DNA of 33,000 nucleotides. Origin: a virus. Numbering within the stretch: the stretch's first letter is position 1; each line of letters begins with the position of its first letter. The notes below the pieces were generated by a model, which did not search any database, had not been told where the DNA came from, and was given only the letters and a program-made list of their open reading frames with translations. The stretch is from positions 1-33,000 of the IMG/VR virus record IMGVR_UViG_3300010413_000108, one strand, 5' to 3'. Positions 545-19,496 of the stretch are shown here, piece after piece. The translations under genes and the position numbers were made by a program.

Positions 545-2803
545 TTACCACCTCGCCAATCTATATAATGGCGTAGGTTTGCCTCTTATATTTTCTTTAC
601 GTATCTCATCGACTTCACCCATATCGATAAGCTCTTTCATTATTTGATTGCGCTCAAATGGCTTAAGCTTTCGCAATTTACTTGTTTGAAATATATCACG
701 TTTGCGTACCCACTTAGTACCAGCCTTTTTAAGCACTTCTAAAATCTTTTTACGTGCAACATCATGCTCATTCTCACCAATATTGTGATCATACAAATTT
801 TCAGTATAGTTACAAGCATTACCTATTAGAACTAGATTGCGATGCATCATTTCTAATGTTATTTCTGGCTGTGCAGGATTTTCTAAAATAGCTTCAATCA
901 TCGCATACTTTTTAGCATTAGGCACCTGTCTATTCCAAATGTCCTTATATCTACCTTTGCGTTTTTGATTATATACACTCGCTTGATATGCAAGCTTACG
1001 CGCATCCTCAGTAACATTTACCCTTAAAGGGTTATGCACTCGCGCTTGAGGTAATTGTACGAGACTACTAACGATCTCTGTCTGATCTGCTATATGCTTA
1101 AGCCTACTAATAAGATCTTCGCTTAAATGTAGTTCTTTACAATTTTCCTGTATGGTTTCAACATAAGGGTCTGCATTAAAAAACATCATGCGCGAAGCAT
1201 TGCCATGCGTTATAAAACTATTATCAATACCTTTAAGCATCAACTCTGGTGTTGTAGCACTGCTTAATATGACATGCGGTGCATACAATATCTCAGTGGC
1301 TTCTTTGGTAATCTGCGTACCAGCTAGAAGGCGCTCAGCAAAGGTAGAATCAGATTTCGTATAAAATTTTAAAAGCAATTCTAAAATGCCACGTTTATGT
1401 TCATTGTTCTGTGCTCCTTGCATCATGCCGCCAAACTCATCCTGCACAATTAAGATATCATGCTTACTACCATTCGTACGTAAACGCTTATCAATACCTT
1501 GTGCGCTACCTACCTCATCAATAATGCCATGCAGTAATTCAGCCTCTGCTCCCTGTGGCACTGCATTACCAAACATTTCATTTAATACTCTGCCTGGTGT
1601 CTGCAACAGCATATCTTTACCGCAGCCAGTTTCACCAATAGCTAGTTGTTGTATATTCATTCTATCGCCTAATATGCTGCGATATTTACCACCGCCTAAA
1701 TAAGCTATGATACTTCGCGCAGCCAACGCGGCTATCATTATGTTTGGCACCCACCATGTTCCGTGCAGTGCTAAAGTAAGCTCTCCAATTGCAGTATCAG
1801 GTGGCGCTAAAATTTCTATGTCTAACTTATCAGCGAGAATTGTATCCTCTAACGCGCTTATGTCTGCAATTTCTATTTCTTCTTGTTCAGCTTCCGTCTT
1901 TTCGCGCTGTACTTTAGCTATCGCGCTTGTAATCGCATCCTGCAGATTTCGGTCTCTAAAGTTGTCCCACTTACGCCCGTTGATACCGAACGCTGCAATG
2001 CAAGTTGGACGCATTGTGTCAAAGATGTCCTTAGCCGACAAACCTTTATTAGCAAGAGCAAGCGCAGCCGGTACATAATTAGTATGCCCCTCGCCATTAA
2101 CGAACATTTCAGCGACTGCTGCTTCATAAGTAGTTCCGTCATTAGTCCGCTCCTTTTGATAATGTACGAGATCTTCTTTTTTGACATTCCCTTCTTCTAA
2201 TTCTTCCGAGGGAGGTAAAGCTATATAATCTGAGCCTTCATAATTGCTGTAAAACTCAAACACGCCATCTTGTGCATACGCTCTCGTAGGTAGATACCAA
2301 CGTTGAGCCCACACATTCATTTCTTTTACATGTTTGATATTAACGTTAAACGCACTTAACTCATGTAACAGCTTAGAAACTGTCGGCGCGAGACTAGATT
2401 TATCTTGCATCGCACACGGTAAAACGACACGGAATTTATTTTTCTTCGGCGGAGCGTGAGAATAAGTAGTATAAACTATGTGCTTGAGTTTGAGTTTGTT
2501 TAAGGCTTCATGCACGGCGCGTGGAGATGGAGCATTACCACCATCAGCACCAGCATCCCCATCTAAAACAAGTACAGACGCACTTTTTAGAAATTTGTTC
2601 GCACGTATGTAAGAATCTTTATACTTAATGCCGCCGGATGTTTCATACTCCTCAGCTTTAAGCATATCGCCACCACGCACAAAATAGCCTTCATTTTTTG
2701 CGCCTGATTTACACTTGTTTAAATGTTCACCTAACTCTTCAAAGCTTAATTCTTGTAATTTAAGGACAGGGTCTTTCGTATGATGCCCAAAAGCAATCTT
2801 CAT
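545..2803 (-). CDS. Primase-helicase, AEP-like primase plus P-loop ATPase
   Basis: A protein of 752 residues with two enzymatic parts. The N-terminal part resembles archaeo-eukaryotic-type primases of plasmids and phages: an acidic motif in VLVLDGD (Asp81 and Asp83), then YTTYSH near residue 112 and a KFRVVLP strand near 125. The second part is a P-loop ATPase with Walker A GETGCGKD (about 390-397) and Walker B ILIVQDE (about 450-456), as in replicative helicases. The C-terminus looks like a winged helix (KKAGTKWVRKRDIFQTSKL). The probable role is primer synthesis and unwinding at the phage origin. I chose ATG at 2803; the frame is open to a TTG at 2908, but that lies about ten bases from a likely -10 box at 2918-2923 and has no binding site. 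It is the first gene of the leftward operon. Confidence 0.8.
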   Translation of the reverse strand: MKIAFGHHTKDPVLKLQELSFEELGEHLNKCKSGAKNEGYFVRGGDMLKAEEYETSGGIKYKDSYIRANKFLKSASVLVLDGDAGADGGNAPSPRAVHEALNKLKLKHIVYTTYSHAPPKKNKFRVVLPCAMQDKSSLAPTVSKLLHELSAFNVNIKHVKEMNVWAQRWYLPTRAYAQDGVFEFYSNYEGSDYIALPPSEELEEGNVKKEDLVHYQKERTNDGTTYEAAVAEMFVNGEGHTNYVPAALALANKGLSAKDIFDTMRPTCIAAFGINGRKWDNFRDRNLQDAITSAIAKVQREKTEAEQEEIEIADISALEDTILADKLDIEILAPPDTAIGELTLALHGTWWVPNIMIAALAARSIIAYLGGGKYRSILGDRMNIQQLAIGETGCGKDMLLQTPGRVLNEMFGNAVPQGAEAELLHGIIDEVGSAQGIDKRLRTNGSKHDILIVQDEFGGMMQGAQNNEHKRGILELLLKFYTKSDSTFAERLLAGTQITKEATEILYAPHVILSSATTPELMLKGIDNSFITHGNASRMMFFNADPYVETIQENCKELHLSEDLISRLKHIADQTEIVSSLVQLPQARVHNPLRVNVTEDARKLAYQASVYNQKRKGRYKDIWNRQVPNAKKYAMIEAILENPAQPEITLEMMHRNLVLIGNACNYTENLYDHNIGENEHDVARKKILEVLKKAGTKWVRKRDIFQTSKLRKLKPFERNQIMKELIDMGEVDEIRKENIRGKPTPLYRLARW

Positions 2804-2917
2804 ATGACATCCCAAATCTCCCAGCGTTATTGTTAAGCACTTTGGCACCTTGCAGCCGGGAGGATTTAAGCAGGTACCAAAGCAATGCATCAAAATGACT
2901 AGCGTCAATAGCTGTGC

Positions 2918-2960
2918 AGTATAAAGCGCGTGCTTAACTATGCACTAGCGTTGGTACCGC
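2918..2960 (-). promoter_or_regulatory. Candidate leftward promoter with shared 15-bp element
   Basis: On the minus strand the 15-mer GCGGTACCAACGCTA (2960-2946) lies 22 bases before TATACT (2923-2918), a good -10 box. The same 15-mer lies 21 bases before TATAGT upstream of queD (11768-11809). No standard -35 is visible, so the 15-mer may be an activator or alternative recognition site. The transcript would have a leader of about 110 bases before the primase-helicase ATG. Confidence 0.5.
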
Positions 2961-2965
2961 TAGTG
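2943..2965. repeat. Perfect inverted repeat around the 15-bp promoter element
   Basis: CACTAGCG (2943-2950) and CGCTAGTG (2958-2965) form an 8-bp perfect inverted repeat around a 7-base centre that contains the core of the shared element. It could be an operator or a hairpin. The copy upstream of queD does not keep the right arm, so the dyad is specific to this site. Confidence 0.6.
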
Positions 2966-2966
2966 T

Positions 2967-2993
2967 AAAAATGGTGTTAAAAGTAACACCATT
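2967..2993 (-). terminator. Hairpin, possible leftward terminator or attenuator
   Basis: AATGGTGTTA (2970-2979) and TAACACCATT (2984-2993) form a 10-bp perfect hairpin with a 4-base loop. Reading the minus strand it is followed by a short run of T. It sits between the upstream minus-strand -10 at 3119-3124 and the promoter at 2918, so it could stop or attenuate transcripts from the upstream start. The T-run is short. Confidence 0.4.
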
Positions 2994-3056
2994 AATAAGG
3001 CATAAGGCCCAAAAATGACCTCTTTTTGCACTATGCTGGTCCCAGCAGCATTTCTA

Positions 3057-3135
3057 GCGTTTGGCCCCTTTGGCACTTAAATAGTAAGGCCAAAGAGCCT
3101 GGTTCGTCTGGCGCTTGTATTATAGTGCCAAACGC
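3057..3135. repeat. Cluster of TTTGGC inverted repeats (operator-like)
   Basis: GCGTTTGGC (3057-3065) is matched by GCCAAACGC (3127-3135), TTTGGCC (3060-3066) by GGCCAAA (3088-3094), and TTTGGCAC (3069-3076) by GTGCCAAA (3125-3132). The nested, competing arms suggest either several protein-binding half sites or an RNA that can fold in alternative ways. One arm abuts the minus-strand TATAAT at 3119-3124. Confidence 0.55.
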
Positions 3136-3147
3136 GATTTGTCTGAA
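3119..3147 (-). promoter_or_regulatory. Weak candidate leftward sigma70-type promoter
   Basis: A consensus TATAAT on the minus strand (3124-3119) has only a weak -35 candidate, TTCAGA, 17 bases upstream (3147-3142). The inverted repeat arm GTGCCAAA lies directly in the spacer, so a protein bound there would block this promoter. Transcripts would run through the hairpin at 2967-2993 toward the primase-helicase. Confidence 0.35.
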
Positions 3148-3209
3148 AAGGAAGCACTGGTAAACCACTGAAAAGGCACAAAAATCCTGTTCAGGCAACC
3201 ACTATTTTC

Positions 3210-3250
3210 TGTCTATTTTTCAGACAACTAAGAGGCCTAAGTCATTGATT
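3210..3250. promoter_or_regulatory. Operator-like dyad and conserved 14-mer, shared with the queD control region
   Basis: Positions 3210-3226 are a near-palindrome of the form TGTCT-N7-AGACA. Positions 3237-3250 (CTAAGTCATTGATT) are the exact reverse complement of 11673-11686. At 11690-11706 the same dyad is perfect (TGTCTGAAAAACAGACA). On the strand facing each gene cluster the order is the same: 14-mer, then dyad. A further half-site copy, TTGTCTGAAAA, is at 3139-3149. Likely bound by a phage or host regulator. Confidence 0.6.
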
Positions 3251-3273
3251 TTAAAAGGGAAAGAAATTAGCAC

Positions 3274-3301
3274 TTGACAGAAAAACGACATATATTAGTA
3301 T
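3274..3301 (+). promoter_or_regulatory. Rightward sigma70-type promoter for the structured RNA
   Basis: A perfect -35 TTGACA (3274-3279) is followed after 16 bases by TAGTAT (3296-3301), which matches the -10 consensus at four of six positions. Transcription would begin near 3308, just at the first strong hairpin of the structured region. The first downstream gene starts at 3882. Confidence 0.7.
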
Positions 3302-3307
3302 CGTGAT

Positions 3308-3845
3308 AACCGCGCAGGAGAGCGCGGGCAAGGAAGCGGACGACGCAGGAGCACAGTCCCGGAAGCACCAAGCCTCGTAGTCAGCTGTGCGCTAAGGTTC
3401 TCGTAGGGCTAAAATCCCGTAAAGCGAAGAAAGGCACACTAGGGCGAAAAGCAACTTGCTCTGCTTGATATGAAATTCGAACTAACTCGTAAGCCGTTTA
3501 ACCGAGTGCATACGCGAAAGCATCATGCAACATTGTAAACGCAGAGGAATGTAACTTGCGGTGGTGTAGCAGACCACGCGAGGGAAATCGAAAATCGAAT
3601 ATGATGGCCGATGAACAGAGCCGAATAAACCAACCACTGAGAATTGTTGCGTGGTTCGGTAGCGTTATAAAGTTAAGTAAGCCGTACATCATTACTATCC
3701 CGAGAGCATAGCTACAGAGTGCGCCTTAACTCAACGCCCGTTAGCAACATAAACCCATCGACACACTCATACAAAGCCGCTAGGAGAGAAACAAGCGGAA
3801 CAGAGTGTGCTTGGCAGTGCGTTCTAATAATAGTGCGCACTGTCT
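3308..3845 (+). ncRNA. Putative large structured non-coding RNA (about 540 nt)
   Basis: No convincing gene lies between the promoter at 3274-3301 and ATG 3882, yet the stretch is full of helices found by eye. They include CCGCGC/GCGCGG (3310-3327), GCACAG/CTGTGC (3351-3390), TGCAT/ATGCA enclosing a GC-GAAA-GC tetraloop (3507-3529), ACATT/AATGT (3530-3552), CTTGC+GTGGT/ACCAC+GCGAG (3555-3582), AACCAC/GTGGTT (3632-3656), AGTTAAG/CTTAACT (3671-3731), CACACTC/GAGTGTG enclosing CCGCT/AGCGG (3762-3809) and CAGTGCG/CGCACTG (3815-3842). Size, phage location and placement behind a promoter recall the large ornate phage RNAs such as ROOL and GOLLD, but I cannot confirm family membership. It could instead be a very long structured leader of the 3882 gene. 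The 3' end is a guess based on the last helix. Confidence 0.6.
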
Positions 3846-3881
3846 CGCATACTTACTATCAACTGAATAGGAGATACACTA

Positions 3882-4148
3882 ATGTCTACTAAATTAAATG
3901 CAGCTACCATGAAAGATATGGAAGAACTCGCACATACTTATTGTAAGTACCACGATATCGACTACAGCGTCGCTAAGGGTACTAACAAAATCGAAGTCTG
4001 TGTAGAAACGCGTAGGCAGGCACGTCACGTCAAAGAGTTTATTTGCAAGCGACTCGATGACAAACGTATCAAGCCTGATAATAAGACGATGTTTGAAATT
4101 GATCATGATGAAGATGGCTGGTACTACTTAAACATCACCAACGCTTAA
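3882..4148 (+). CDS. Small unknown protein (88 aa), paralogue of the 4734 gene
   Basis: An 88-residue acidic protein preceded by AGGAG eight bases before ATG. It follows the structured RNA region and is followed at once by a terminator, so the RNA and this gene form one short transcription unit, with readthrough into the rest. Its N-terminal helix (MEELAHTYCKYHDIDY) and the spacing of later conserved residues match the 91-residue protein at 4734-5009 (LIDAYCLYHNIEHTI), which indicates an old duplication. There are no catalytic or membrane motifs. Function unknown; its early position suggests a host-interaction role, which is inference. Confidence 0.75.
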   Translation: MSTKLNAATMKDMEELAHTYCKYHDIDYSVAKGTNKIEVCVETRRQARHVKEFICKRLDDKRIKPDNKTMFEIDHDEDGWYYLNITNA

Positions 4149-4169
4149 GAAGTATGCAGTAATTTAAAA

Positions 4170-4196
4170 GGGGCCAGCATTTGGCCCCTTTATTTT
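4170..4196 (+). terminator. Rho-independent terminator after the 3882 gene
   Basis: GGGGCCA (4170-4176), a 5-base loop and TGGCCCC (4182-4188) are followed by TTTATTTT. This is a strong intrinsic terminator, although no clear new promoter is visible before the next gene at 4225, so partial readthrough is likely. Confidence 0.8.
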
Positions 4197-4204
4197 CCAA
4201 CAGT

Positions 4205-4224: not shown

Positions 4225-4461
4225 ATGAAAAACGTAGAAGCAATGAGCATCGCAGATATTTTCCATTGGCTAGATAAAACACGAGCTTCAGTACGCAAGG
4301 CAATGCAACGTGGCGTATCGCATACATCGCATAGAGCATATGAGTTAAAAGATAGATACGAAGATTTGCGCTCCGTAGCAATTCGGCGCGGTGTATGGAA
4401 TCGCTACTGCATACACCACGGTTTATCTAATAGCCATGACGCTTATGATTTATGGGCGTAA
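4225..4461 (+). CDS. Small unknown basic protein (78 aa)
   Basis: A 78-residue protein beginning MKNVEAMSIADIFHWL with a GAGGT binding site in the repeated leader motif. It is mostly predicted helix and is rich in Arg, His and Tyr (ASVRKAMQRGVSHTSHRAYE), so nucleic-acid contact is possible but unproven. The stop TAA is directly followed by the AGGAG of the next gene, so the two are translationally coupled. No family recognised. Confidence 0.7.
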   Translation: MKNVEAMSIADIFHWLDKTRASVRKAMQRGVSHTSHRAYELKDRYEDLRSVAIRRGVWNRYCIHHGLSNSHDAYDLWA

Positions 4462-4471
4462 GGAGTATATG

Positions 4472-4702
4472 ATGAGTAAAGCATTAGAGAATCTCAAACG
4501 TAGATATCCTAGCGTTATCGAAAGCATAAGCGATGAGCGCGACACAGGTGATGGCTGGTGGCTTTACTTGCACGCTGGCTATCGTAATGCAGAGGGCGAC
4601 ATACACTTTATACACGAAGACACGGTCGCTGAAGTTTTAAAGATGTTTCGTAAATACGTTAGGACTTGCGATTGCGATAGCTGCAAAGCACGTCTTAAAT
4701 AA
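4472..4702 (+). CDS. Small unknown protein (76 aa) with C-terminal Cys cluster
   Basis: The frame is open from 4391, but AGGAG at 4461-4465 directs initiation at ATG 4472 (six-base spacing) rather than the adjacent ATG 4469 (three bases). The protein of 76 residues begins MSKALENLKRRYPSVIE, has an aromatic patch (DGWWLYLHAGYRN) and ends in VRTCDCDSCKARLK. The three Cys there (CDCDSC) could bind a metal. No family recognised. Confidence 0.7.
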   Translation: MSKALENLKRRYPSVIESISDERDTGDGWWLYLHAGYRNAEGDIHFIHEDTVAEVLKMFRKYVRTCDCDSCKARLK

Positions 4703-4733: not shown

Positions 4734-5009
4734 ATGGCTAATTTATCATACAAACGATGGATAGAAATACAGAAGCTGATTGACGCATACTGTTTATACC
4801 ATAATATAGAGCACACGATAACGGTGCACAGCGGTACAGTCGAGTTTATTAGTGTGCAATTAAAGGCAAAAGGTGTGGCAATGAGCTTACAACGATTCTT
4901 GCGCCGCCGAGTTAACCTTAAGCCTGTGCAGGACGGACGCGTGTTCGATGAAATCTATATGGACAGTAGAGATAAAGCGCGTCTAAACATTTTCCGCCAA
5001 TACAATTAA
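4734..5009 (+). CDS. Small unknown protein (91 aa), paralogue of the 3882 gene
   Basis: A 91-residue protein with a binding site in the leader motif variant at 4715-4727. It aligns over its whole length with the 3882 product: both have a helix ending YCxYHxI, a central strand, a basic helix (SLQRFLRRRVNLKP here, KEFICKRLDDKRIKP there) and a C-terminal acidic strand ending LNI. This copy is basic while the 3882 product is acidic, so the duplicates have diverged in charge. Function unknown. Confidence 0.75.
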   Translation: MANLSYKRWIEIQKLIDAYCLYHNIEHTITVHSGTVEFISVQLKAKGVAMSLQRFLRRRVNLKPVQDGRVFDEIYMDSRDKARLNIFRQYN

Positions 5010-7539: not shown

Positions 7540-8802
7540 ATGGCTAGAAAAAGAACAAGAGGTGAGTTTACTAAACCGCAACTTCGCGCGATGCTTGACT
7601 ATGTAGGTGTTCCTTTTGCACAGCAACCTAAAAACGTTGGCGAGATGCAATTTGTTTTAGATAAGTATAAACAAATTGAGCCTGAACGTTATGATGAAGC
7701 GTATGCTGTTATCATTGAGCATCGTATTCCTAGTGCTGAAGCCGCATCGGAAGCAGGTGTGCCTGCCGAAGTGTTTAAAGACTTTAGTAAGTTCTTAGAT
7801 GAAATGCGCCAGGAGTTTAACGAAAAGACTGCATTGCAAATGGCTACTACTGCCAGCGAAAAGTTGCTTATGATTGATCAAGCGATTACGCGCATGGAAG
7901 AGAAGTCCTTAGCAATGGCAAAGGCTGCCATTGATGAGGCTGCCAAACAATTCCGTACAGTGCGCGTCTCGCGAGGTAAAGTAAACGGTAAACCTGTTAA
8001 AGGACCTATTCCAAAAGTGTTCGACAGAATAGTGCAGCTCGCTAATCAGCGTAAGAACATTTTAATGGTAGGCCCTACTGGCTGCGGCAAGACGCATTTG
8101 GCCGGCATCGTTGCAGAGGCATTAGAGTTAGACTATGCCTCGCAATCCTGCTCTGAGGGCATGAATGAGTCTGCATTAACAGGCTGGTTATTACCGTTAG
8201 AAAAGAACGGACAGTTTGTTTATGTCAGCAGCGAGTTTGTTCGTATATACGAAAACGGTGGCGTGTTTCTGTTTGATGAAATAGATGCTAGTGATCCTAA
8301 TGTGCTAGTGTTTATGAACCAAGCTATTGCACAAGATCATTTCTTCCTACCCCAGCGGCACACTCAGCCTCGTGTGCAGAAGCATAAAGACTTTGTAGCT
8401 ATTGCTGCCGGCAATACTTTTGGCGCTGGTGCTGACGCTATGTTTGTAGGGCGTAACCAATTGGATGAAGCTACGCTAAACCGCTTTAAAATTGGTACTG
8501 TATATATGGACTACGATGAAAACGTAGAGCGCACACTTATTGCCGCACGCAATGAGAAAGTCTACGACTGGTGTCTTGCAATACGCAAAGCAATTGACAG
8601 TCACCGCCTACGCCGTAGTATGTCAACGCGCAATATGATTGACGCTGTTGACATGATTGAGGGTGAAGGCTGGAAATTGCAGGAAGTTGCGGAAGGCTAC
8701 TTTGCAGACTGGTCTCGGGAGGAGTTACAAGTTATTCGCAGTGAATTAATGGAAGCGAATAATAAGGCTGCTGAGACTGTAACTGTAGGAGGGATGCAAT
8801 AA
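7540..8802 (+). CDS. MoxR/CobS-like AAA+ ATPase
   Basis: A 420-residue protein with an AAA+ module in the second half: Walker A GPTGCGKT (178-185), Walker B VFLFDEID (242-249), sensor-1 Asn292 in AIAAGNTFG, and a probable arginine-finger region with DEATLNRF (309-316). The architecture and spacing fit the MoxR/CobS group, which works as a ring remodeller together with a VWA-type partner. Residues 1-140 are a phage-specific helical extension with a likely coiled coil (MIDQAITRMEEKSLAMAKAA). The stop overlaps the next start as TAATG, coupling it to the probable VWA-like partner. Its target in the phage cycle is unknown. Confidence 0.85.
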   Translation: MARKRTRGEFTKPQLRAMLDYVGVPFAQQPKNVGEMQFVLDKYKQIEPERYDEAYAVIIEHRIPSAEAASEAGVPAEVFKDFSKFLDEMRQEFNEKTALQMATTASEKLLMIDQAITRMEEKSLAMAKAAIDEAAKQFRTVRVSRGKVNGKPVKGPIPKVFDRIVQLANQRKNILMVGPTGCGKTHLAGIVAEALELDYASQSCSEGMNESALTGWLLPLEKNGQFVYVSSEFVRIYENGGVFLFDEIDASDPNVLVFMNQAIAQDHFFLPQRHTQPRVQKHKDFVAIAAGNTFGAGADAMFVGRNQLDEATLNRFKIGTVYMDYDENVERTLIAARNEKVYDWCLAIRKAIDSHRLRRSMSTRNMIDAVDMIEGEGWKLQEVAEGYFADWSREELQVIRSELMEANNKAAETVTVGGMQ

Positions 8803-9716
8803 TGGAAACGGTAATGGTAGATGATATAAATCGTATAACATCTGTACACTTTGATAGTATGCACGATTTGTTAGAGTTTAAACCAACGGAATGCAACCGT
8901 ACCACTTTTGGCTCGCGTATTGATAGCAATACAAAAGGCACTAGCTGGTATGGCCCAGGTAATCACAGTAGCCATGATGTCATTAAACATGCGTATGAAG
9001 GCTGGTTAGAAGGTTATGCTGAGTTGTCTAATATGCTTAATAAGCTTGATGCCACTGGTCATGCTAAAGAGGAAATGGCTAAAATATCTAAACGTAGACG
9101 CAAGCGTTACAAGTCTAACCAAGGATATGAAGTCGACATACATGCGATTAACCAAGGACGGTTAGATCGTGCATGGACCAATATACGCAGGCAGGTTGTT
9201 GACGCAAGACATAAGCTGATAACAGTTATGATTGACGTAGGAGGCACGGCAGGCGAAGATGTTTTTGCCAGTTTGTGGCGTGCTGCCGTAGCCGTAAAAT
9301 TAACGGATGCGTTGATTAGCGCAGGCAAGAGCGTGCGCATTGTTGTTGGTAGTTATGCAGTCGGCGTATATGACAGTCACCCCGGCTACAGAACAACCAC
9401 GTCGATTGTTGTTAAGCAATACAATGAGCCTCTTTCCTTAGAACGGCTTGCTGGTATGGCACACTTAGGCTTTCACCGTGTGTTTAATTTCAAAGCTAGA
9501 GCTGCACACTATTGGAAATGCTCTTATGGTTATGGCGCTAGTACAAACGGACTTGATAGGAAGGAGAATATTCCACTTCAATTTAGGCAGGACTTAGAGG
9601 AGGGCTACACAGAATACGTTTATCTATCACGCTCACGTAACATGGCCTCAGCTCAGCAGAGCATGAAATCTGCACTGCAACAATTACACATGGGAGACGA
9701 TAATGCACATTCATAA
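8802..9716 (+). CDS. Probable VWA/CobT-like partner of the MoxR-like ATPase
   Basis: A 304-residue protein translationally coupled to the AAA+ gene (TAATG, GGAGGG upstream). A basic linker (KISKRRRKRYKSNQGYEVD, about 95-112) precedes a Rossmann-like section: a strand-Asp-Gly motif (ITVMIDVGGTAGEDV), a helix, and another strand (SVRIVVGSYAV). A VWA domain would carry DxSxS at this point; here the metal site reads D-V-G-G-T and so looks degenerate. The N-terminal part includes a helix ending in GWLEGYAEL. Pairing with a MoxR ATPase is the usual genomic setting of VWA proteins, and phages often carry such a pair. The assignment rests on context plus weak motifs. Confidence 0.55.
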   Translation: METVMVDDINRITSVHFDSMHDLLEFKPTECNRTTFGSRIDSNTKGTSWYGPGNHSSHDVIKHAYEGWLEGYAELSNMLNKLDATGHAKEEMAKISKRRRKRYKSNQGYEVDIHAINQGRLDRAWTNIRRQVVDARHKLITVMIDVGGTAGEDVFASLWRAAVAVKLTDALISAGKSVRIVVGSYAVGVYDSHPGYRTTTSIVVKQYNEPLSLERLAGMAHLGFHRVFNFKARAAHYWKCSYGYGASTNGLDRKENIPLQFRQDLEEGYTEYVYLSRSRNMASAQQSMKSALQQLHMGDDNAHS

Positions 9717-11306: not shown

Positions 11307-11347
11307 AAGCAACCTAGCATCAACTCCTCCTGCATCTGCAGGTACTC

Positions 11348-11377
11348 GGGGTGACGTTTCGCGTCACCCCTTTTTTT
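11348..11377 (+). terminator. Strong rho-independent terminator after the four-repeat gene
   Basis: GGGGTGACG (11348-11356) and CGTCACCCC (11362-11370) form a perfect 9-bp stem with a 5-base loop, followed by seven T. It separates the early rightward transcripts from the queD operon. Confidence 0.9.
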
Positions 11378-11393
11378 CTGACTGTCAGAAACG

Positions 11394-11660
11394 CCTGTCC
11401 GCTGCACTAGCACGCGCAAGTCCAGCTGCCACAGCATACGCCACAGCACGTAAGCACTAGCACGCATGAGCTAGCTAGCACGTACTAGCGCAAGCTGCCA
11501 GGGGCTTGTAATGCGCTGTGGCAGCGACCTCTGGCAGTAGGGCTCATTGGGGCGTGGCACAGCTTGCCACAGCTCCCTGGAGCTAGGACCCGCTGGCAAG
11601 CTACGCCAGGCCTCGCTTACGGCGTGCTCCAGGGCTCTCCGAGCGTCTGGCAGCACAGTT
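11394..11660. repeat. GC-rich block of short repeats, candidate replication origin
   Basis: A non-coding block, clearly richer in GC than the genes around it. CTAGCACG occurs three times and TGCCA/TGGCA elements, often extended to TGCCACAG or CTGTGGCA, occur at least eight times in both orientations. AGCTAGCTAGC adds a local palindrome. Its position between a terminator and a promoter, next to a probable DNA-binding protein gene, fits an origin or a protein-loading site; a structured RNA is the other possibility. No open frame here has a ribosome binding site. Confidence 0.45.
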
Positions 11661-11672
11661 CAAAGCACCTAG

Positions 11673-11706
11673 AATCAATGACTTAGCGATGTCTGAAAAA
11701 CAGACA
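11673..11706 (+). promoter_or_regulatory. Operator-like block: conserved 14-mer and perfect dyad
   Basis: AATCAATGACTTAG (11673-11686) is the exact reverse complement of 3237-3250. TGTCTGAAAAACAGACA (11690-11706) is a perfect dyad, with its near copy at 3210-3226. Both occur in the same order upstream of the outward-facing operons. Likely a regulator binding region. Confidence 0.6.
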
Positions 11707-11767
11707 ATTTTGAGGCCTGCTGCATAGTGCTGAGGCAGTGCATAACACGCACTGACAATTGGCGCTT

Positions 11768-11809
11768 GCGGTACCAACGCTATGCTGTGCGCTCATGCTT
11801 GTTTATAGT
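11768..11809 (+). promoter_or_regulatory. Candidate promoter of the queD operon with shared 15-bp element
   Basis: GCGGTACCAACGCTA (11768-11782) lies 21 bases before TATAGT (11804-11809). The same 15-mer is 22 bases before TATACT in the leftward control region. No good -35 matches TATAGT. An alternative sigma70-like pair is TTGGCG with TATGCT at about 11759-11786. The leader to queD would be about 35 bases. Confidence 0.5.
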
Positions 11810-11846
11810 ATGCGCAACCTAACAAGCTTAATAACAAGGAGCTCAC

Positions 11847-12440
11847 ATGATAATCCGTAAACTCTATAAGTTCGAGGCCGCGCATATCGTACGCGATTGC
11901 TCCTCGCGACGATGTTCACATTCGATACATGGGCATTCATACTTAGTCGAATTTCTTCTAACAGCACAAAATCTTGATGATGCTGGAATGATTATCGATT
12001 TTGGTTTGCTTAAAAGTAATCTTGGCACTTTTGCTGATAGTTTCGATCATGCACTTATGGTTTGGAATGAAGATGAAGTTGCTAAAAAAGTGGCTATGGA
12101 TTCCAGTGAGCGGGTTGTATACAGTCCATATAACCTAACAGCTGAGAACATGTCAAAGATGTTTTTCATGGGCGCAATGGGCATACTCAACTCCTGTGAG
12201 TTTCAACATAACGAAGATAATGTTCAAGTACATTCCGTAATTGTACATGAAACTACCACTGGTTATGCGCAATGCTTTGAGGAAGATATTTCTTTTATGG
12301 ATATCAAGCGTTGGCAGGAAATTGCTTTTTCTTCCCGTATACGCGATGACTGGAAAGATACTTCACTCGGTCGTTATATACGCCAGGTTGCTGTTACTAA
12401 TGAAGAGCGTATTCCTCTTATACTTCCAAAAGAGGTATAA
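11847..12440 (+). CDS. queD: QueD-like 6-carboxy-tetrahydropterin synthase
   Basis: QueD converts dihydroneopterin triphosphate, the FolE product, to 6-carboxy-5,6,7,8-tetrahydropterin, the second step toward preQ0. Zinc ligands are visible as His13 (FEAAHIV) and His28/His30 (IHGHSY). Cys23 precedes them as the likely catalytic Cys, with Asp67-His68 (SFDHAL) and Glu135 (VHETTTG) completing the usual active-site set; NLTAENMSKMF is the family helix. At 197 residues it is longer than typical QueD because of a C-terminal extension of about 50 residues after residue 145. GGAG precedes the ATG. It is the first gene of the rightward replication and modification operon, with queE following. Confidence 0.9.
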   Translation: MIIRKLYKFEAAHIVRDCSSRRCSHSIHGHSYLVEFLLTAQNLDDAGMIIDFGLLKSNLGTFADSFDHALMVWNEDEVAKKVAMDSSERVVYSPYNLTAENMSKMFFMGAMGILNSCEFQHNEDNVQVHSVIVHETTTGYAQCFEEDISFMDIKRWQEIAFSSRIRDDWKDTSLGRYIRQVAVTNEERIPLILPKEV

Positions 12441-12441
12441 C

Positions 12442-13128
12442 ATGACAGACATAAACGTACAGCTACCGACTAAACAAGACTTGACGCGCGATGGCGTGAG
12501 CAAGCCACTGCGTATCAAAGAAATTTTCTTTAGTATACAAGGTGAAGGTCCTTTTGCTGGTGTGCCTGCCACTTTTATTCGATTAGGTGGTTGCAACTTA
12601 CGCTGCACATGGTGTGATACTAATTACACTGCTGATCTCGAAGAAATGATGGTTGACGCAATCGTAGTACAAATGCGTTCACCTCTTGTCGTACTAACAG
12701 GTGGTGAACCATTTGCGCAGAATATTTCCCCACTTGTTGAAAAGCTGTTAGACGCAGGACATGCTGTTCAGATTGAAACTAACGGCACTTTATCAGTGCC
12801 TGCCTTTGCCTGGGATGAAGTTACTGTAGTCGTATCCCCTAAAGTAGGTGGCTTAAGCAAAGCAATTCAACGTCATGCAATTTATTATAAGTATGTCGTT
12901 GGCGCTGAAGATGCTAAGAGCGAGGATGGCTTGCCTACCGTTGTTACACAAGAGAAGGCAGGTGTTCCTGCACGTCCTGCCAATGATCACGCAGTTATCT
13001 ATGTCATGCCTCGTGATGATAAAGATATGGCACGGAACACTGCAAATCAAATCGCAGCGATGCATATAGCGCAGAAACACGGTTATATTCTAAGCCTGCA
13101 ATTACATAAAATCTTAGGAGCAAGATAA
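12442..13128 (+). CDS. queE: QueE, 7-carboxy-7-deazaguanine synthase (radical SAM)
   Basis: QueE rearranges carboxy-tetrahydropterin to 7-carboxy-7-deazaguanine using S-adenosylmethionine and a 4Fe-4S cluster. The cluster ligands Cys51, Cys55 and Cys58 are in GGCNLRCTWCDT, the SAM-binding TGGEP is at 86-90, and the substrate-end motif FFSIQGEGPFAG is at about 29-40. The frame is open to 12241, but AGAGGT before ATG 12442 and the family-like N-terminus fix the start, one base after the queD stop. Length 228 residues is normal. Its stop overlaps the next ATG (TAATG). Confidence 0.93.
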   Translation: MTDINVQLPTKQDLTRDGVSKPLRIKEIFFSIQGEGPFAGVPATFIRLGGCNLRCTWCDTNYTADLEEMMVDAIVVQMRSPLVVLTGGEPFAQNISPLVEKLLDAGHAVQIETNGTLSVPAFAWDEVTVVVSPKVGGLSKAIQRHAIYYKYVVGAEDAKSEDGLPTVVTQEKAGVPARPANDHAVIYVMPRDDKDMARNTANQIAAMHIAQKHGYILSLQLHKILGAR

Positions 13129-13490
13129 TGACTGAAGAAGAGTTTGCAGAGTGGACCACACTCCAAGCCCAATTGAAGGATATTAAAACACGCGAAGCCG
13201 TGTTGCGTAAAAAACTTGTCGCTTCGGTAAAAGAAGACAAATATGCTACAGGTACTTTCCATTACAAAATCTTCGGCAAGAAAATAAAAGTCGCGCAACA
13301 AGATACAATTAAGCTTGATGACACAATGCTTAAAACATTGTGGGGTGAATTGACTGACGAGGAAAAGGATTGCATCGAGAATGTGCCTAAACTTATTAAG
13401 AAAAAATACAACGCATTGCCAAACGATTGTCTCATGAAAATGGAAGTTACTGTACGCAATCTGTCTATGCCTACAGTTACATTAGAATAG
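13128..13490 (+). CDS. Unknown phage protein (120 aa) with N-terminal coiled coil
   Basis: A 120-residue protein coupled to queE by TAATG. A charged helix (FAEWTTLQAQLKDIKTREAV) leads into a mixed part and a C-terminus with YNALPNDCLMKMEV and MPTVTLE. The layout resembles a small phage family often found next to recombination genes, but I cannot name it with certainty. A GC hairpin follows the stop. Confidence 0.7.
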   Translation: MTEEEFAEWTTLQAQLKDIKTREAVLRKKLVASVKEDKYATGTFHYKIFGKKIKVAQQDTIKLDDTMLKTLWGELTDEEKDCIENVPKLIKKKYNALPNDCLMKMEVTVRNLSMPTVTLE

Positions 13491-13501
13491 CATTTCAACC
13501 G

Positions 13502-13522
13502 GCCCCCTATTCAGCTGGGGGC
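13502..13522 (+). promoter_or_regulatory. RNA hairpin between the 13128 and 13552 genes
   Basis: GCCCCC (13502-13507) and GGGGGC (13517-13522) form a 6-bp GC stem with a 9-base loop. It is followed by TTAACTCAC and not a T-run, so it is more likely an RNA-processing or stability element, or a weak attenuator, than a terminator. Confidence 0.5.
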
Positions 13523-13526
13523 TTAA

Positions 13527-13551
13527 CTCACAAACGTAAAAGGAGAAATAT
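13527..13551 (+). repeat. Leader repeat CTCACAAACGTAAAAGG before the Sak4-like gene
   Basis: This leader includes the AAGGAG binding site of the gene at 13552. Copies occur at 14368-14382 (exact CTCACAAACGTAAAA) and, as a variant, at 14392-14417 directly before the SSB-like gene. Confidence 0.6.
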
Positions 13552-14319
13552 ATGGCCGTGAAATTCACGAACGTGCAAGACGCCATTGATGATAATGGTA
13601 TTAAAATTTTAGTCCATGGACCTGCAGGTGCAGGCAAGACTAAACTTTGCGCGACTACTGGTGTACCTACACTTATCATTAATGCAGAAGGCGGTTTGTT
13701 ATCTATTGCTGATGCACCGAGTTATATTAGAGTTGCTACAATCGAAAATATTCACGATTTATATGAAGTCTATAACTTGTTGCTAGCTAATCCTGGCGAT
13801 TTTGAATGGGTTATGCTTGATTCAATTTCAGAAATTGCTGAAGTTGTCTTAAGTAATGAAAAGGCTATCAGCAAAGACCCAAGGCAGGCATACGGTGAAT
13901 TACAAGAACAGCTCACCAAGTTGTTAAGAGCTTTCCGTGATTTACCAGACTATAATGTTATGATGACCTGTAAACAGGCTTACACGAAAGATGATTATAC
14001 AGGTATCACAATGTTTGGCCCATCATTGCCAGGAAGACGCCTACCGCAGGAAATTCCATACTTGTTTGATGAAGTTTTCGCGTTGCGTGCGGAAAAGAAT
14101 AATGAAGGCGTTATAGTGCGCTCATTACAAACTTTCCGCGATATGCAGTATGACGCAAAGGATAGAAGTGGCGCACTTAATGCTTATGAAGAGCCGAACT
14201 TGCAGATTGTTCGCTCTAAAATTCAATCACATGTTAAAGCACGTAAAGAGGAGGCTGAACAAGCTGTAACTAGCAGCGAGAATACTGCTGAATCAGCAGA
14301 AGAAGGTAACCAAGAGTAG
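13552..14319 (+). CDS. Sak4-like RecA-type ATPase (single-strand annealing/recombination)
   Basis: A 255-residue P-loop ATPase with Walker A GPAGAGKT (23-30) and a Walker B strand WVMLDSISEI near residue 85. Other features of the phage RecA/Rad51-like Sak4 group are a core lacking RecA's extra domains, the MMTCKQAYTKDD segment and an acidic C-terminal tail (residues 230-255). Known members promote annealing of single strands and cooperate with a phage SSB. The next gene is SSB-like and shares the leader repeat, which supports a functional pair. AAGGAG precedes the ATG. Confidence 0.8.
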   Translation: MAVKFTNVQDAIDDNGIKILVHGPAGAGKTKLCATTGVPTLIINAEGGLLSIADAPSYIRVATIENIHDLYEVYNLLLANPGDFEWVMLDSISEIAEVVLSNEKAISKDPRQAYGELQEQLTKLLRAFRDLPDYNVMMTCKQAYTKDDYTGITMFGPSLPGRRLPQEIPYLFDEVFALRAEKNNEGVIVRSLQTFRDMQYDAKDRSGALNAYEEPNLQIVRSKIQSHVKARKEEAEQAVTSSENTAESAEEGNQE

Positions 14320-14367
14320 TATGCTACTCGTTAGTTCTATAAAATTGCCTAACGTTTAATGTACTAG

Positions 14368-14417
14368 CTCACAAACGTAAAAACTTACTAACGCACAAAT
14401 GTAAAGGAGAAAGAAAT
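14368..14417 (+). repeat. Two leader repeats before the SSB-like gene
   Basis: CTCACAAACGTAAAA (14368-14382) and a variant beginning CGCACAAATGTAAAGGAG (from 14392) lie in tandem before ATG 14418. The second contains the ribosome binding site and matches the leader at 13527-13551. Confidence 0.6.
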
Positions 14418-14933
14418 ATGGCACAATTACCAGGTGGACAATTTAACGGCCAGAATCAAGCCCCTATGGAAAGCTTTGAGCCGTTGCCTCCAGGCGATTA
14501 TGTTGCACGCATTGTTGAATCGGAAATGAAACCTACCAAGGATAATACTGGCCAATACCTTAGCCTTATTTTCCAGGTTATGTCCCAAGGTTTTGAGAAC
14601 CGTAAGATTTTCAACAATCTCAACCTCGTAAATAAAAGCGCGAAAGCTGTCGATATTGCTAACCGCGAGCTCGGTGAAATCTGCCGCGCAGTTGGCAAGC
14701 CAGTTATTAACGATTCCCAGGAACTGCATGGTATTCCGATGCTGATCACTGTAAAGATTGAACCAGCAACTGAACGCTATGCCGCGTCCAATTCTATTAC
14801 CGGTTATAAACCCGCTTCTGGTGTTCCTGTGCCTCAAGCTTCTGCCGCAGGCATGTCAGCCCCTGCGCCACAGGCTGGGCAAGGAGCAGCAGCGCCACAG
14901 GCTCCCGCAGAAGAAAAGCCACCTTGGGCTTAA
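14418..14933 (+). CDS. DUF669-like single-stranded DNA-binding protein
   Basis: A 171-residue protein with an OB-like first part: LPPGDYVARIVESEMKPTK, YLSLIFQVMSQGFENRKIF and NLNLVNKSAKAVDIANREL. It ends in a flexible Ala/Pro/Gln-rich tail (about 130-165) closed by EEKPPWA. This pattern fits the phage DUF669 group, which is often next to Sak4-like proteins and is considered an SSB. The acidic-aromatic tip is the usual partner-docking tail. Codons include CTG and CTC more often than in the neighbours, and there is a strong terminator right after, both signs of high expression. Confidence 0.8.
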   Translation: MAQLPGGQFNGQNQAPMESFEPLPPGDYVARIVESEMKPTKDNTGQYLSLIFQVMSQGFENRKIFNNLNLVNKSAKAVDIANRELGEICRAVGKPVINDSQELHGIPMLITVKIEPATERYAASNSITGYKPASGVPVPQASAAGMSAPAPQAGQGAAAPQAPAEEKPPWA

Positions 14934-14945
14934 GCGGGTTTATTG

Positions 14946-14978
14946 TACGCACCTCTTTTTGAGGTGCGTATTCTTTTT
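14946..14978 (+). terminator. Rho-independent terminator after the SSB-like gene
   Basis: TACGCACCTC (14946-14955) and GAGGTGCGTA (14961-14970) form a perfect 10-bp stem with a 5-T loop, followed by TTCTTTTT. Confidence 0.9.
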
Positions 14979-15005
14979 CATTAGTTGTCTATGCGGGAGG
15001 CAATA

Positions 15006-15248
15006 ATGTCCTTAAAAAGAAAAGAAATGTCTGAGTTGTTAGAATTGCTCGACAATGTTGATGCAGCACAAGCTAGAAAAATTCAATTACGTCTTGTAGA
15101 ACTTGCGCCCCCTGGTACGGATAATGTAAAAGTCGCAATAAAAGCGTTTGACGCTTTAGACGCGGAAACATTAGATGTGTATCACTTCTTCAAAGAAATT
15201 CGCGCACAGTTTAATGATGAAGATTGGGAGGAACTTCTCAATGTCTGA
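15006..15248 (+). CDS. Small unknown helical protein (80 aa)
   Basis: GGGAGG seven bases upstream selects ATG 15006, although the frame is open from a TTG at 14985. The product starts MSLKRKEMSELLELLDNV and is mostly acidic helix. Its end overlaps the start of the Cas4-like nuclease by eight bases, and its last codons carry that gene's GGGAGG binding site. It may be a small partner of the nuclease; no family is recognised. Confidence 0.7.
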   Translation: MSLKRKEMSELLELLDNVDAAQARKIQLRLVELAPPGTDNVKVAIKAFDALDAETLDVYHFFKEIRAQFNDEDWEELLNV

Positions 15249-16101
15249 TTTAACTGCAATCCTACATACTACATACAATGCTGTTGAAAACAGGCAAATA
15301 GTAAAACCTGGCCGTTCATATTTAGGTATGTCAAGCATTGGTAAAGAATGCTCTCGTGCGTTATGGTACCAATGGCGTTGGGCCTATCCCGTTATATTAA
15401 CGCCACGTTCTCTACGCTTATTTGAGCGTGGAGATATGGAAGAAGAGCGCATTGTCCGCGATTTAAAAAATGCAGGTATCTTTTGTTACCGTGTTGATGA
15501 GCAGGGTAATGAGCACGAAATTACTGGCGAGATAGGTGAAGAACAGGAAGAAGTAGCACATTTTACTGGACATTGTTTAGGACATTTAGATGGCCGCGCT
15601 AGAAATATTCCAGAAGCGCCTAAAACAGATCATTTATTAGAAATGAAAACGATGGCTGAAAAGTATTTTAAAGCACTTGTTAAGTCAGGTGTACAAGAAA
15701 CTTTTCCGGAATACTATGCTCAGATGCAGATTTATATGTATTACACTGGTTTGAAAAGGGCTTTATTCGTAGCCACTAATAAGAATACGGAAGAACGTTG
15801 GTACGAGCGGGTGCATTATGATCCTGCCGTAGGCAATATGCTTAATCGGAAGATTTTAGATATTTTAACAGCTGAGGAACCACCTAAACGTATTTCAGAA
15901 ACACCCGACTTCTTTAAATGCCGTTGGTGTGCTGGTCGTGATGTTTGTTTCGGTACTAAAGAGCATCAACATAATTGCCGCACCTGTACAAGAGCAGATC
16001 TGCATGATGCAGGTGTTTGGAAGTGTAATGTTAGCGGCACTGACATACCATTAAATATTCAGCGCATTGGATGTGAATCGCATTATAAAACATTGCTATG
16101 A
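15241..16101 (+). CDS. Cas4/RecB-like PD-(D/E)XK nuclease with iron-sulphur cluster
   Basis: A 286-residue nuclease. The active site is visible as Asp117 (GHLDGRA) and Glu134-x-Lys136 (LLEMKTM), followed by a helix with Gln161/Gln163 (YYAQMQIYM). One N-terminal Cys (Cys37, GKECSRALWY) and a C-terminal group Cys227, Cys230 and Cys236 (KCRWCAGRDVC) match the 4Fe-4S arrangement of Cas4 and AddB-type nucleases. A further CxxC (Cys246, Cys249) near the end may bind zinc. It probably resects DNA ends for the Sak4/SSB recombination system. The start at 15241 has GGGAGG; the open frame continues upstream to 15175. The stop overlaps the helicase start (ATGA). Confidence 0.85.
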   Translation: MSDLTAILHTTYNAVENRQIVKPGRSYLGMSSIGKECSRALWYQWRWAYPVILTPRSLRLFERGDMEEERIVRDLKNAGIFCYRVDEQGNEHEITGEIGEEQEEVAHFTGHCLGHLDGRARNIPEAPKTDHLLEMKTMAEKYFKALVKSGVQETFPEYYAQMQIYMYYTGLKRALFVATNKNTEERWYERVHYDPAVGNMLNRKILDILTAEEPPKRISETPDFFKCRWCAGRDVCFGTKEHQHNCRTCTRADLHDAGVWKCNVSGTDIPLNIQRIGCESHYKTLL

Positions 16102-17729
16102 AAAATATAAAACTTCGTTGGTATCAGGTAGAAGCTATTGCTGCCTGTATCGATTATTTAGAGGAGAATCCTGGCAAGCATCCTTTAATTGTTTGCCCTA
16201 CAGGTTCTGGCAAATCCGTAATCATTGCTAAGATTGCGGAGGTAATCGAGCGCATACAAGAGCGCGAACCTGATGCTGTTATCTTAGTGGTTTCCCACGT
16301 AAAAGAAATTATCGACCAAGATGCAAAAGCATTAGAAGCACTTTTGCCTGGTAGAGTAGGTGTTTATAGTAGTGGCATGAAGCGCAAAGAGCGCAAGAGT
16401 ATTACGGTAGCTGGTGTGCAAAGTATTTATCGCAAGCCTTATTTATTCCGTAAAGCCACGCATATTATTGTCGATGAAGCGCATCTTATTCCGCCGGATG
16501 GCGAGGGAATGTACCAAACTTTATTCGAAGAGTTATGTAATGCCGTAGTTATTGGCTTAACTGCTACACCATTTAGATTAGGCAGCGGCTATCTTCATAC
16601 GGGCAACAAACGTTTATTTGATGAGCTTGTATACGAAGTCGACATTGTTAAACTTATTCAGCAAGGTTATCTTAGTCCGTTGCTTACTAAAGGATCTACA
16701 CAGGAACTAAGTGTGGAAGGTATTACTACGGTAGCTGGTGAGTTTAATACTAAACAGATGGAAGAGACTTTTGATAAGTTTGAAAAGACAAATGCCATCG
16801 TTGAAGAAATGGTGCAATATAAAGAAACAAGAAAAAGTTGGCTCGTATTCGCTATTGGTATTAGCCATGCTGAGCATATTGCGGAGGAGTTAAATAAGCA
16901 CGGTGTAATAGCCAAAGCCGTACACAGTAAACTATCAGGAGAAGTAAGGGATCGCTATGTACGGCAGTTCAAAGCAGGGCACATACAAGCCCTGGTAAGC
17001 GTCGCTACACTTACAACTGGCTTTGACCATCCTGCTGTAGACATGATTGCACTCGTACGCCCTACGAACTCTCCAGTGCTCCATGTGCAAATGATTGGGC
17101 GAGGTTTGCGCATTGCGGAAGAAAAAGAAAACTGCCTAGTATTAGATTTCGCGGGCAACATTATGCGCCTAGGTCCAATAAATGATGTGCATATTGCTGA
17201 GAAAGGCAAAAAGAAAGGCGTTGCACCAATTAAAACTTGTCCTAGTTGTCAAACGCACGTACCAGCATCGGCTAGAGCCTGTTATATATGTGGGCACGAG
17301 TTTAAGATAGATACTGAGAAGAAACTTACTACACAGGCACATGAAGTCGAAGCAATTAAAACTAGTAAGGGTCCTAGTAGTGCGTGGCATGATGTTACTC
17401 AAGTATTATATACGAAACATTTCGGGGCTAAAGGTACTTCATTAAAAGTGACCTATAGATGTGGTATGCGTATGTTTAATGAGTGGCTAGCTATCGGCAG
17501 AGGAGGTAGAGGTGGCTACATGGCTGACCATTGGTGGACTTACCGTTCACGCTTTGCAAAGCATCCGGAGTATTGGCCACCTACAGATGTTGACATTGCT
17601 TTAAAACGTATCAAACGAGGAGAATTAAATGAACCTACAAGAATACTTGTTGAAGAGGATGGAAAGTATCCGAGAATCGAACGCAGTGAGTTTGGAGTAC
17701 CAGAACAGATTGCTGCGAGTGGTTCATGA
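16098..17729 (+). CDS. SF2 DEAH helicase with C-terminal zinc ribbon
   Basis: A 543-residue superfamily 2 helicase. Visible motifs are a Q-like WYQVEAI, motif I CPTGSGKS (33-40), motif II DEAH (126-129), motif III TATP (155-158), and motif VI QMIGRGLR near 330. A four-Cys zinc ribbon (CPSCQTHVPASARACYICG) follows near 380-400. About 140 further residues have an unknown fold with aromatic patches (DHWWTYRSRFAKHPEYWPP). It is comparable to phage recombination helicases and is coupled to the nuclease upstream by ATGA, so the two may act together in strand resection. The last 101 bases also encode the start of the next gene. Confidence 0.9.
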   Translation: MKNIKLRWYQVEAIAACIDYLEENPGKHPLIVCPTGSGKSVIIAKIAEVIERIQEREPDAVILVVSHVKEIIDQDAKALEALLPGRVGVYSSGMKRKERKSITVAGVQSIYRKPYLFRKATHIIVDEAHLIPPDGEGMYQTLFEELCNAVVIGLTATPFRLGSGYLHTGNKRLFDELVYEVDIVKLIQQGYLSPLLTKGSTQELSVEGITTVAGEFNTKQMEETFDKFEKTNAIVEEMVQYKETRKSWLVFAIGISHAEHIAEELNKHGVIAKAVHSKLSGEVRDRYVRQFKAGHIQALVSVATLTTGFDHPAVDMIALVRPTNSPVLHVQMIGRGLRIAEEKENCLVLDFAGNIMRLGPINDVHIAEKGKKKGVAPIKTCPSCQTHVPASARACYICGHEFKIDTEKKLTTQAHEVEAIKTSKGPSSAWHDVTQVLYTKHFGAKGTSLKVTYRCGMRMFNEWLAIGRGGRGGYMADHWWTYRSRFAKHPEYWPPTDVDIALKRIKRGELNEPTRILVEEDGKYPRIERSEFGVPEQIAASGS

Positions 17730-17865
17730 CATGAATGTTTATATTCCTTGCAGTGAATGCGAATACAATATAAACAATACTTGCGATAAGTTCGGCGGTA
17801 GTGCATTACCGCCTGAAATTATGGCATTTGGGTGTGGCGAAGGCGAAGAAAGAATTCCGTTTTAG
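17629..17865 (+). CDS. Small Cys-rich probable zinc protein (78 aa)
   Basis: GAGGAG six bases before ATG 17629 opens a 78-residue frame that overlaps the helicase by 101 bases in another frame. The helical first half is followed by IPCSECEYNINNTCDKFG and PPEIMAFGCGEGEERIPF, giving four Cys in a likely metal site. The PPEI...GC ending is a pattern seen in small phage proteins of unknown function. The non-overlapping half is well ordered and the binding site is strong, so I consider it real. Confidence 0.7.
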   Translation: MNLQEYLLKRMESIRESNAVSLEYQNRLLRVVHDMNVYIPCSECEYNINNTCDKFGGSALPPEIMAFGCGEGEERIPF

Positions 17866-17892
17866 GAATTGACTATAACAGGATGATTTAAA

Positions 17893-18810
17893 ATGGCTAT
17901 TCAAATAACAAATGAAATGATTGAAGAACGTGCGCAAGAAACTGCGCGTGCATTACGAAATGCAGGTTTAATCGGACGCGTGCGTGAAGTAGGTGGTCAT
18001 CGTGTTCACAAACTGCCTGCTATATACGGAATACCGCGCGGTGGTATTCCGTGTGCTTATGCGCTTCAAGCCGCTCTTGGTACTGGTATTGTTGTCGATG
18101 ATATTAAACAAGCAAACATTATCGTCGATGATATTGTTGATAGCGGTTCGACAAGAGACCGCTACTTAGAAATGGCACCATCTGATGCTGTCTTCTGTAC
18201 ATTTTATGATGCAAGTAATCACGATGATTGGTTAGTATTTCCTTGGGAGGGGAATGAACTGCAAAGTGCAGCCGATATTCCTACACGGCTTTTGCAGTAT
18301 GTTGGGGAGGACGCCAAGCGTGGCGGCTTGGCAGAAACACCTATGCGCTTTCTAAAAGCGTGGAAGCATTTCACAAGTGGCTATGATGCTAACGTTGAAG
18401 ATGTGCTTAAGGTGTTTGAGGATGGCGCTGAGAAAGTAGATGAGATGGTACTGGTAAAAAATATTCCACTTTACAGCCAGTGCGAGCATCACATGGTTCC
18501 TTTCTTTGGTGTCGCGCATATTGCCTACATTCCAAACGGCAAAATTGTAGGTCTATCTAAACTTTCTCGCGTTACTGATATTTATGCTAGACGCTTGCAG
18601 GTACAGGAAAGACTTACCAATCAAATTGCTGACGCACTTGAAAAACACTTAAATCCAAAAGGTGTCGCAGTCGTTTTGGAGTGTAGGCATTTATGTATGG
18701 AAGCACGTGGTATTTCACAACAAGGCAGCACGACAATCACGTCCGCTATGCGCGGTGTATTCCGTGAAAGTGTGCAAACGCGCAACGAATTTATGGGGTT
18801 AATAAAATGA
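17893..18810 (+). CDS. folE: Phosphoribosyltransferase-FolE (GTP cyclohydrolase I) fusion
   Basis: Two domains in 305 residues. Residues about 1-120 resemble a type I phosphoribosyltransferase: [16 protein letters not shown] (43-58) and the PRPP loop [12 protein letters not shown] (76-87). Residues about 125-305 are GTP cyclohydrolase I, the first step toward preQ0, turning GTP into dihydroneopterin triphosphate. Zinc and catalytic residues Cys197, His199 and His200 (QCEHHMVPF) and Cys268 (ECRHLCM) are present, as are [20 protein letters not shown] and SAMRG. The FolE part begins near the usual start of the catalytic core. The role of the fused domain is unknown; supplying guanine nucleotide or handling a deazaguanine base are guesses. 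It is coupled to queC (ATGA). Confidence 0.88.
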
Positions 18811-19496
18811 GTCACGTCGTATTATTTAGTGGTGGTATGGATAGTTTTATCGCAGCCCACAAATACCCGGAAGCAACTCTACTGCATGTAGATTTTCGTG
18901 AAAAGTACGAAGATAAACAACGCAAGGTGATTGAAAAAATTGCCCCGCGTACAGTAGAGATACTAGAAGGTCTTGATTTAAGCAAGTTTATCGCTGAGGA
19001 TGGTGTCTATTTACCAGGAAGAAATGTTCTGCTGATTACACTTGCATCGTTGTACGGCAATACGATTGTATTAAGTTCTTCTGCTGGTGCCAAACATCCT
19101 GACAAAGATGTTGTTTTTGCGCGCCATATGAGTGATACTCTTAGCTATGCTAAGAACACGGTATCACCTAAAAACGAATCATATACACGTTATGAAGTTA
19201 TAAGACCGTTTGGTGCTATGACTAAGTATGATATCGTTACGGAATATCTACAGCTTGGTGGTGATGTGCGCGATTTGTACTCGACTTCATCTTGTTATCA
19301 CCCTACGGAAATAGAGTGCATGAAATGCCGTAGTTGCCTGCGTAGATTAGTTGCTTTTGGTTTGCACGGATTCCGTTTAGATGAAGTGTATATTCACGCG
19401 CCGCGTATATCTCAACTACTGCGCGACAATCAATGGAGTGCGAATCCTGTTGAAAACGAACAGGCTATGAAATTGCTAAACAGACTACGCCCATGA
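18807..19496 (+). CDS. queC: QueC, 7-cyano-7-deazaguanine (preQ0) synthase
   Basis: QueC uses ATP and ammonia to turn 7-carboxy-7-deazaguanine into preQ0. The PP-loop SGGMDS is at residues 8-13, [16 protein letters not shown] at 69-84, and four zinc-binding Cys (163, 171, 174, 177) lie in [17 protein letters not shown]. Length 229 is typical, and there is no fused amidotransferase (Gat) domain. Its start overlaps the folE stop and its stop overlaps the start of the DpdA-like gene (both ATGA), so three modification enzymes are translated in a chain. Confidence 0.93.

Follow-up and report, generated by a model that had tools for sequence, protein, structure and literature searches.

A long non-coding stretch ending in a very stable hairpin ahead of an early gene in a siphophage-like virus: a possible processed leader

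Large non-coding RNAs carried by phages include ROOL (RF03087), which is often found near tRNA islands, and GOLLD (RF02032), covariance matches to which fall on a conserved 3′ region. GOLLD is usually larger than the stretch described here, often >800 nt, and lies near tRNAs (PMC12286853). The most abundant transcript of phage ICP1 is an 800-nt RNA without an ORF, seen in RNA-seq, whose function is not known; leaders and ORF-less transcripts that lack sequence conservation are documented in phages and their satellites, e.g. the 5′ UTRs of PLE and the ICP1 transcript itself (PMC7567579). The early mRNA of phage T7 carries RNase III processing hairpins (PMC4858673).

We consider here a locus in a 33,000-nt fragment of a siphophage-like virus (IMG/VR record IMGVR_UViG_3300010413_000108), the whole of which is referred to as the window. 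Its longest gap without an ORF (2909–3881) separates the primase gene from a run of small early genes, and the part of interest is a stretch of 573 bases in front of the first of these. The features of the locus are as follows.

545–2908, minus strand: primase gene
2943–3252, plus strand: upstream module GCACTAGCGTTGGTACCGC ... TCTATTTTTCAGACA ... CTAAGTCATTGATT, with an inverted repeat copy at 11667–11791
3274–3301, plus strand: sigma70-like promoter TTGACA-16-TAGTAT, 10/12 match, weak evidence alone
3308–3881, plus strand: A-rich non-coding leader or candidate RNA, AT skew +0.26, no coding potential
3310–3327, plus strand: 5′ terminal hairpin CCGCGC-AGGAGA-GCGCGG
3600–3771, plus strand: predicted three-way-junction domain (3600–3604/3767–3771, 3609–3613/3756–3760, 3620–3660, 3662–3737)
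3803–3854, plus strand: exceptional 8+10+3-bp hairpin without a U-run, candidate RNase III-type processing site
3868–3873, plus strand: Shine-Dalgarno TAGGAG, predicted to lie in a weak local hairpin
From 3882: run of small early genes
3882–4148, plus strand: p88, gene for an 88-aa alpha/beta protein, first after the leader
4165–4197, plus strand: intrinsic-terminator-like hairpin AAAGGGGCCA-GCATT-TGGCCCCTTT followed by ATTTT, absent from the pattern-scan listing

Other genes in the window encode a CobS/MoxR-like ATPase, a DUF7192 protein, queuosine/7-deazaguanine proteins and a family A DNA polymerase, the closest relatives of which share only 41–47% identity (Microcystis phage Me-ZS1, Shewanella phage S0112, Stenotrophomonas phage ply2008005c and IMG/VR contigs). 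The ATPase and DUF7192 genes form a pair at 7540–9713 with their nearest relatives in AM24-type Acinetobacter phages. QueD-, QueE-, FolE-, QueC- and TGT/DpdA-like genes at 11847–20395, a set also present in Me-ZS1 and S0112, are likely to direct 7-deazaguanine DNA modification. Homologues of two of the small early genes, p78 and p74 (4225–4699), lie side by side and in unchanged order in CcrBL10, a giant Caulobacter phage, and those of p78 occur in CcrRogue and RBC57 as well, with identities of 33–36% for the p78 and p74 matches.

The stretch is non-coding, as the earlier note had maintained. Its in-frame codon score lies between −0.29 and −0.40 whichever of the six frames is read (25 genes of this phage score +0.06 to +0.24 in frame), and its longest start-to-stop ORF, of 64 aa, is not above expectation (median of 68 in shuffled sequence). 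A search for hidden small ORFs in the stretch found none that is credible, and neither codon usage nor family matches pointed to a conserved protein-coding region there. The A-over-T skew of 0.26 places it in the top 0.06% among windows elsewhere in the fragment, and this excess of A is strand-specific and begins at the promoter. Such a bias could fit an RNA that has unpaired adenosines, though the modelled fold leaves fewer adenosines unpaired than shuffles do.

Of the two options in the earlier note, membership of the ROOL/GOLLD type of RNA did not hold, and a new class of this type is not supported either. The covariance search suggested there, run with all Rfam families, gave no match, and none to ROOL or GOLLD even at E values up to 5 with relaxed filters; two ROOL positive controls (L149 and L150) scored 366 and 339 bits, and no GOLLD positive control was found in 399 genomes. 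The stretch is like ROOL in length (about 560–590 nt) and in being phage-borne and non-coding, but it folds far more weakly (z about −1.6, compared with −5.6 and −5.9 on the true strand for two genuine ROOL RNAs in the same calculation), and there is no tRNA in the window, whereas both ROOL controls sit among tRNAs. We reject ROOL on these three grounds, and GOLLD, which is also phage-borne and non-coding, on the missing covariance match and tRNAs.

The same region had been described as richly structured, with at least ten helices, and the complementary segments listed are all present: CACACTC (3762–3768) and GAGTGTG (3803–3809) surround CCGCT (3777–3781) and AGCGG (3794–3798), GCGAAAGC stands at 3514–3521, and CAGTGCG (3815–3821) can pair with CGCACTG (3836–3842). 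Their number, however, is that of chance. There are 6 helices of at least 6 Watson-Crick pairs within 60 nt where dinucleotide shuffles have 3.7 (13 of 100 shuffles reach 6), and over the entire stretch 26 where shuffles have 22.5 (26 of 100 reach 26). The GNRA tetraloop is there, but loops of this kind with two closing pairs number 1 against 1.8 expected. The minimum free energy gives a z of about −1.4 to −1.7 for 3308–3880 and, once the 3′ hairpin is left out (3308–3800), of about +0.2, like shuffled sequence. The whole stretch folds no better than the phage's own 540-base pieces (mean z −2.2, sd 1.9; 14 pieces across the gene-dense part, one of which covers the other non-coding gap). Helices listed by eye over 540 bases do not rise above chance; one hairpin alone does. 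Among the other predicted elements, the 5′ terminal hairpin has a pairing probability of 0.92 in the fold of 3308–3880 and is absent from that of 3308–3845, and the three-way junction has pairing probabilities of 0.8–0.9 in the longer fold, with its hairpin 3662–3737 reaching a z of only −1.5.

The exception is the hairpin at 3803–3854, which extends the CAGTGCG/CGCACTG helix; here the claim of a helix closing the 3′ end was well founded. It reads GAGTGTGC TT GGCAGTGCGT T CTA ATAA TAG T GCGCACTGTC TC GCATACTT, and its 54-mer, at −31.7 kcal/mol, ranks second in the 33 kb with both strands counted. None of 60 shuffles of the stretch reached this value (best −23.9), and z on the transcribed strand is −6.6. 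The pairing of GAGTGTGC (3803–3810) with GCATACTT (3847–3854) is much stronger than that of CACACTC with GAGTGTG, and both compete for 3803–3810, so the two helices are mutually exclusive, the weaker one being the outer helix of the nested arrangement described earlier. Lacking a U-run, the hairpin is not an intrinsic terminator. Between its end and the Shine-Dalgarno of the 88-aa gene lie 13 bases.

We therefore tentatively prefer, at somewhat less than an even chance, to read 3308–3881 as a long 5′ leader that is not translated and belongs to a short early unit; its 3′ hairpin would serve in processing or stabilisation. The unit would run from the promoter through the leader and p88 to the terminator. 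This reading is favoured because all six frames are non-coding and the promoter-like site is in register with the first hairpin, and because the hairpin lies beyond all shuffles, 13 nt before a Shine-Dalgarno, with a terminator-like hairpin after p88. Transcription would begin near 3308, seven bases after the −10 box (TTGACA, 3274–3279; TAGTAT, 3296–3301) and 2 nt before the first hairpin. RNase III may then cut at 3803–3854, between the leader and the ribosome-binding site, as in T7 early mRNA, leaving a p88 mRNA that is short at its 5′ end and can be translated; the same cut would free about 500 nt of non-coding RNA, which may have a function of its own. The hairpin is long, stable and double-stranded, untranslated and upstream of a gene, as an RNase III leader would have it. 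It shares with the T7 hairpins (R1.1 and others) great stability and length, an early untranslated position just before a gene, and the missing U-run, but here there is one candidate site, which follows some 500 nt of leader. To our knowledge, RNase III substrates are indistinguishable by sequence from other stable hairpins.

Several points count against the leader. Although the TTGACA promoter noted earlier is indeed present, it is weak evidence, as 20 kb contain 8 sites with a 10/12 match, this one included, and promoter-like sites are no more numerous in this genome than in shuffles. A leader with a processing site only would be long at 500 nt, and the local pairing predicted for the Shine-Dalgarno is the same with the leader present or absent, which gives no sign of a regulatory switch. 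A long non-coding transcript at this position is plausible. The evidence separates poorly between a leader, a free RNA and a DNA-level element. If it is a leader only, the locus adds another example of an early phage transcript that is untranslated and probably processed.

The suggestion that the region could regulate a run of early genes narrows to a leader for one gene, as the terminator-like hairpin at 4165–4197 means that the unit may carry p88 alone. The p88 protein has a paralogue in the 91-aa product of 4734–5009 (BLASTP E 8e-7), and its AF2 model (pLDDT 89) has the same order of helices and strands as that of the paralogue, which is also confident. Neither Pfam nor PHROG gave this family an assignment, and the fold search with p88 returned no significant match.

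Relatives of the stretch were sought in several collections. No homologue was found in 50,697 phages and 72,556 plasmids (blastn), at 84 polymerase-related (PolA) loci (nhmmer and blastn) or in 53 records searched in full; the best matches among the PolA relatives (L091 and L093) were rejected as coding sequence and chance. The 16-mer scans of IMG/VR gave about the chance number of matches, none aligning convincingly beyond control level, and the best-aligned were rejected on inspection as located in coding frames, while a 17-mer scan of bacterial genomes gave 10 matches, not above chance. The neighbouring CobS/MoxR and DUF7192 genes led only to Acinetobacter phages, without a DNA match to the stretch, the giant Caulobacter phages with adjacent p78 and p74 homologues have no non-coding gap at that locus, and a motif search with the small early proteins gave one match, unrelated.

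The first alternative, which we consider rather unlikely, is that the stretch is a non-functional or DNA-level spacer, i.e. a remnant, or a region with a role in regulation or replication that separates the divergent primase from the early genes, in which the promoter and the 3′ hairpin alone are functional. That most of it folds like shuffled sequence fits this, as does the finding that the strongly folding half of the gap is the neighbouring part (z −4.9 and −3.1) and not 3308–3881. The module that adjoins it, recurring inverted at 11667–11791, is a sign of DNA-level signals, and Me-ZS1 and G002, the relatives with a readable primase region, lack a gap of this kind at that gene, from which it follows that the leader, if it is one, is lineage-specific or has been replaced. 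However, a tightly packed genome has here retained 573 non-coding bases with a strand-specific excess of A from the promoter on, which a spacer does not need.

Less probable again is a stand-alone large structured RNA of an unseen class (like ROOL, GOLLD and the ICP1 RNA), made early and bounded by the 3′ hairpin. A non-coding stretch of about 540 nt with a strong A excess, bounded by a promoter and a very stable hairpin and containing several nested helices of medium confidence, is what such an RNA would show, and ICP1 provides a precedent: three sub-windows of its gap gave z of −1.5, −0.4 and −3.6 in the same calculation for an RNA that is abundant, so a functional RNA is compatible with a modest z. 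Like the stretch, the ICP1 locus is a phage region of several hundred bases without an ORF or a tRNA neighbour, although its RNA lies at the lysis cluster, was seen in RNA-seq and has no sequence similarity to the stretch. Against a free RNA stand the lack of a homologue in the collections searched and of tRNA neighbours, the chance number of helices, and a z of about +0.2 without the 3′ hairpin, where genuine ROOL RNAs have −5.6 and −5.9. The more specific version, in which an orphan RNA of about 500–550 nt, of an undescribed class, is made early by a siphophage lineage carrying 7-deazaguanine genes and freed at the 3′ hairpin, is slightly more doubtful still. If a discrete RNA does accumulate, it joins those of ICP1 and phage K as an abundant large non-coding RNA outside the named classes.

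A leader responsive to a ligand or protein (a riboswitch, or p88 autoregulation), switching between CACACTC/GAGTGTG and GAGTGTGC/GCATACTT, is very improbable, as the two exclusive pairings of 3803–3810, the leader position and the compact alpha/beta fold of p88 with its weak, non-significant matches (YajQ family best, E 3e-3) are set against an extended hairpin with a pairing probability of 0.96–0.98 in longer folds, which leaves no balanced switch, the lack of any Rfam riboswitch match, and Shine-Dalgarno pairing that is predicted with or without the leader, so that no regulatory switch is seen.

Elsewhere in the window, the upstream part of the gap (2909–3260), where the z of −4.9 is on the minus strand and that of −3.1 on the plus, folds far better than shuffles and could be the leader of the primase transcript. 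The module common to 2943–3252 and, inverted, 11667–11791 (TAGCGTTGGTACCGC ... TTTTTCAGACA ... CTAAGTCATTGATT) probably serves in two places as a signal for regulation or replication. Its second copy falls in a second non-coding gap of 540 bp (11307–11846), for which Rfam gave no match and which holds several of the window's most stable hairpins, including the strongest 54-mer (11554–11607, minus strand, −34.5 kcal/mol); the part at 11375–11672 has a z of −2.5 on the minus strand.
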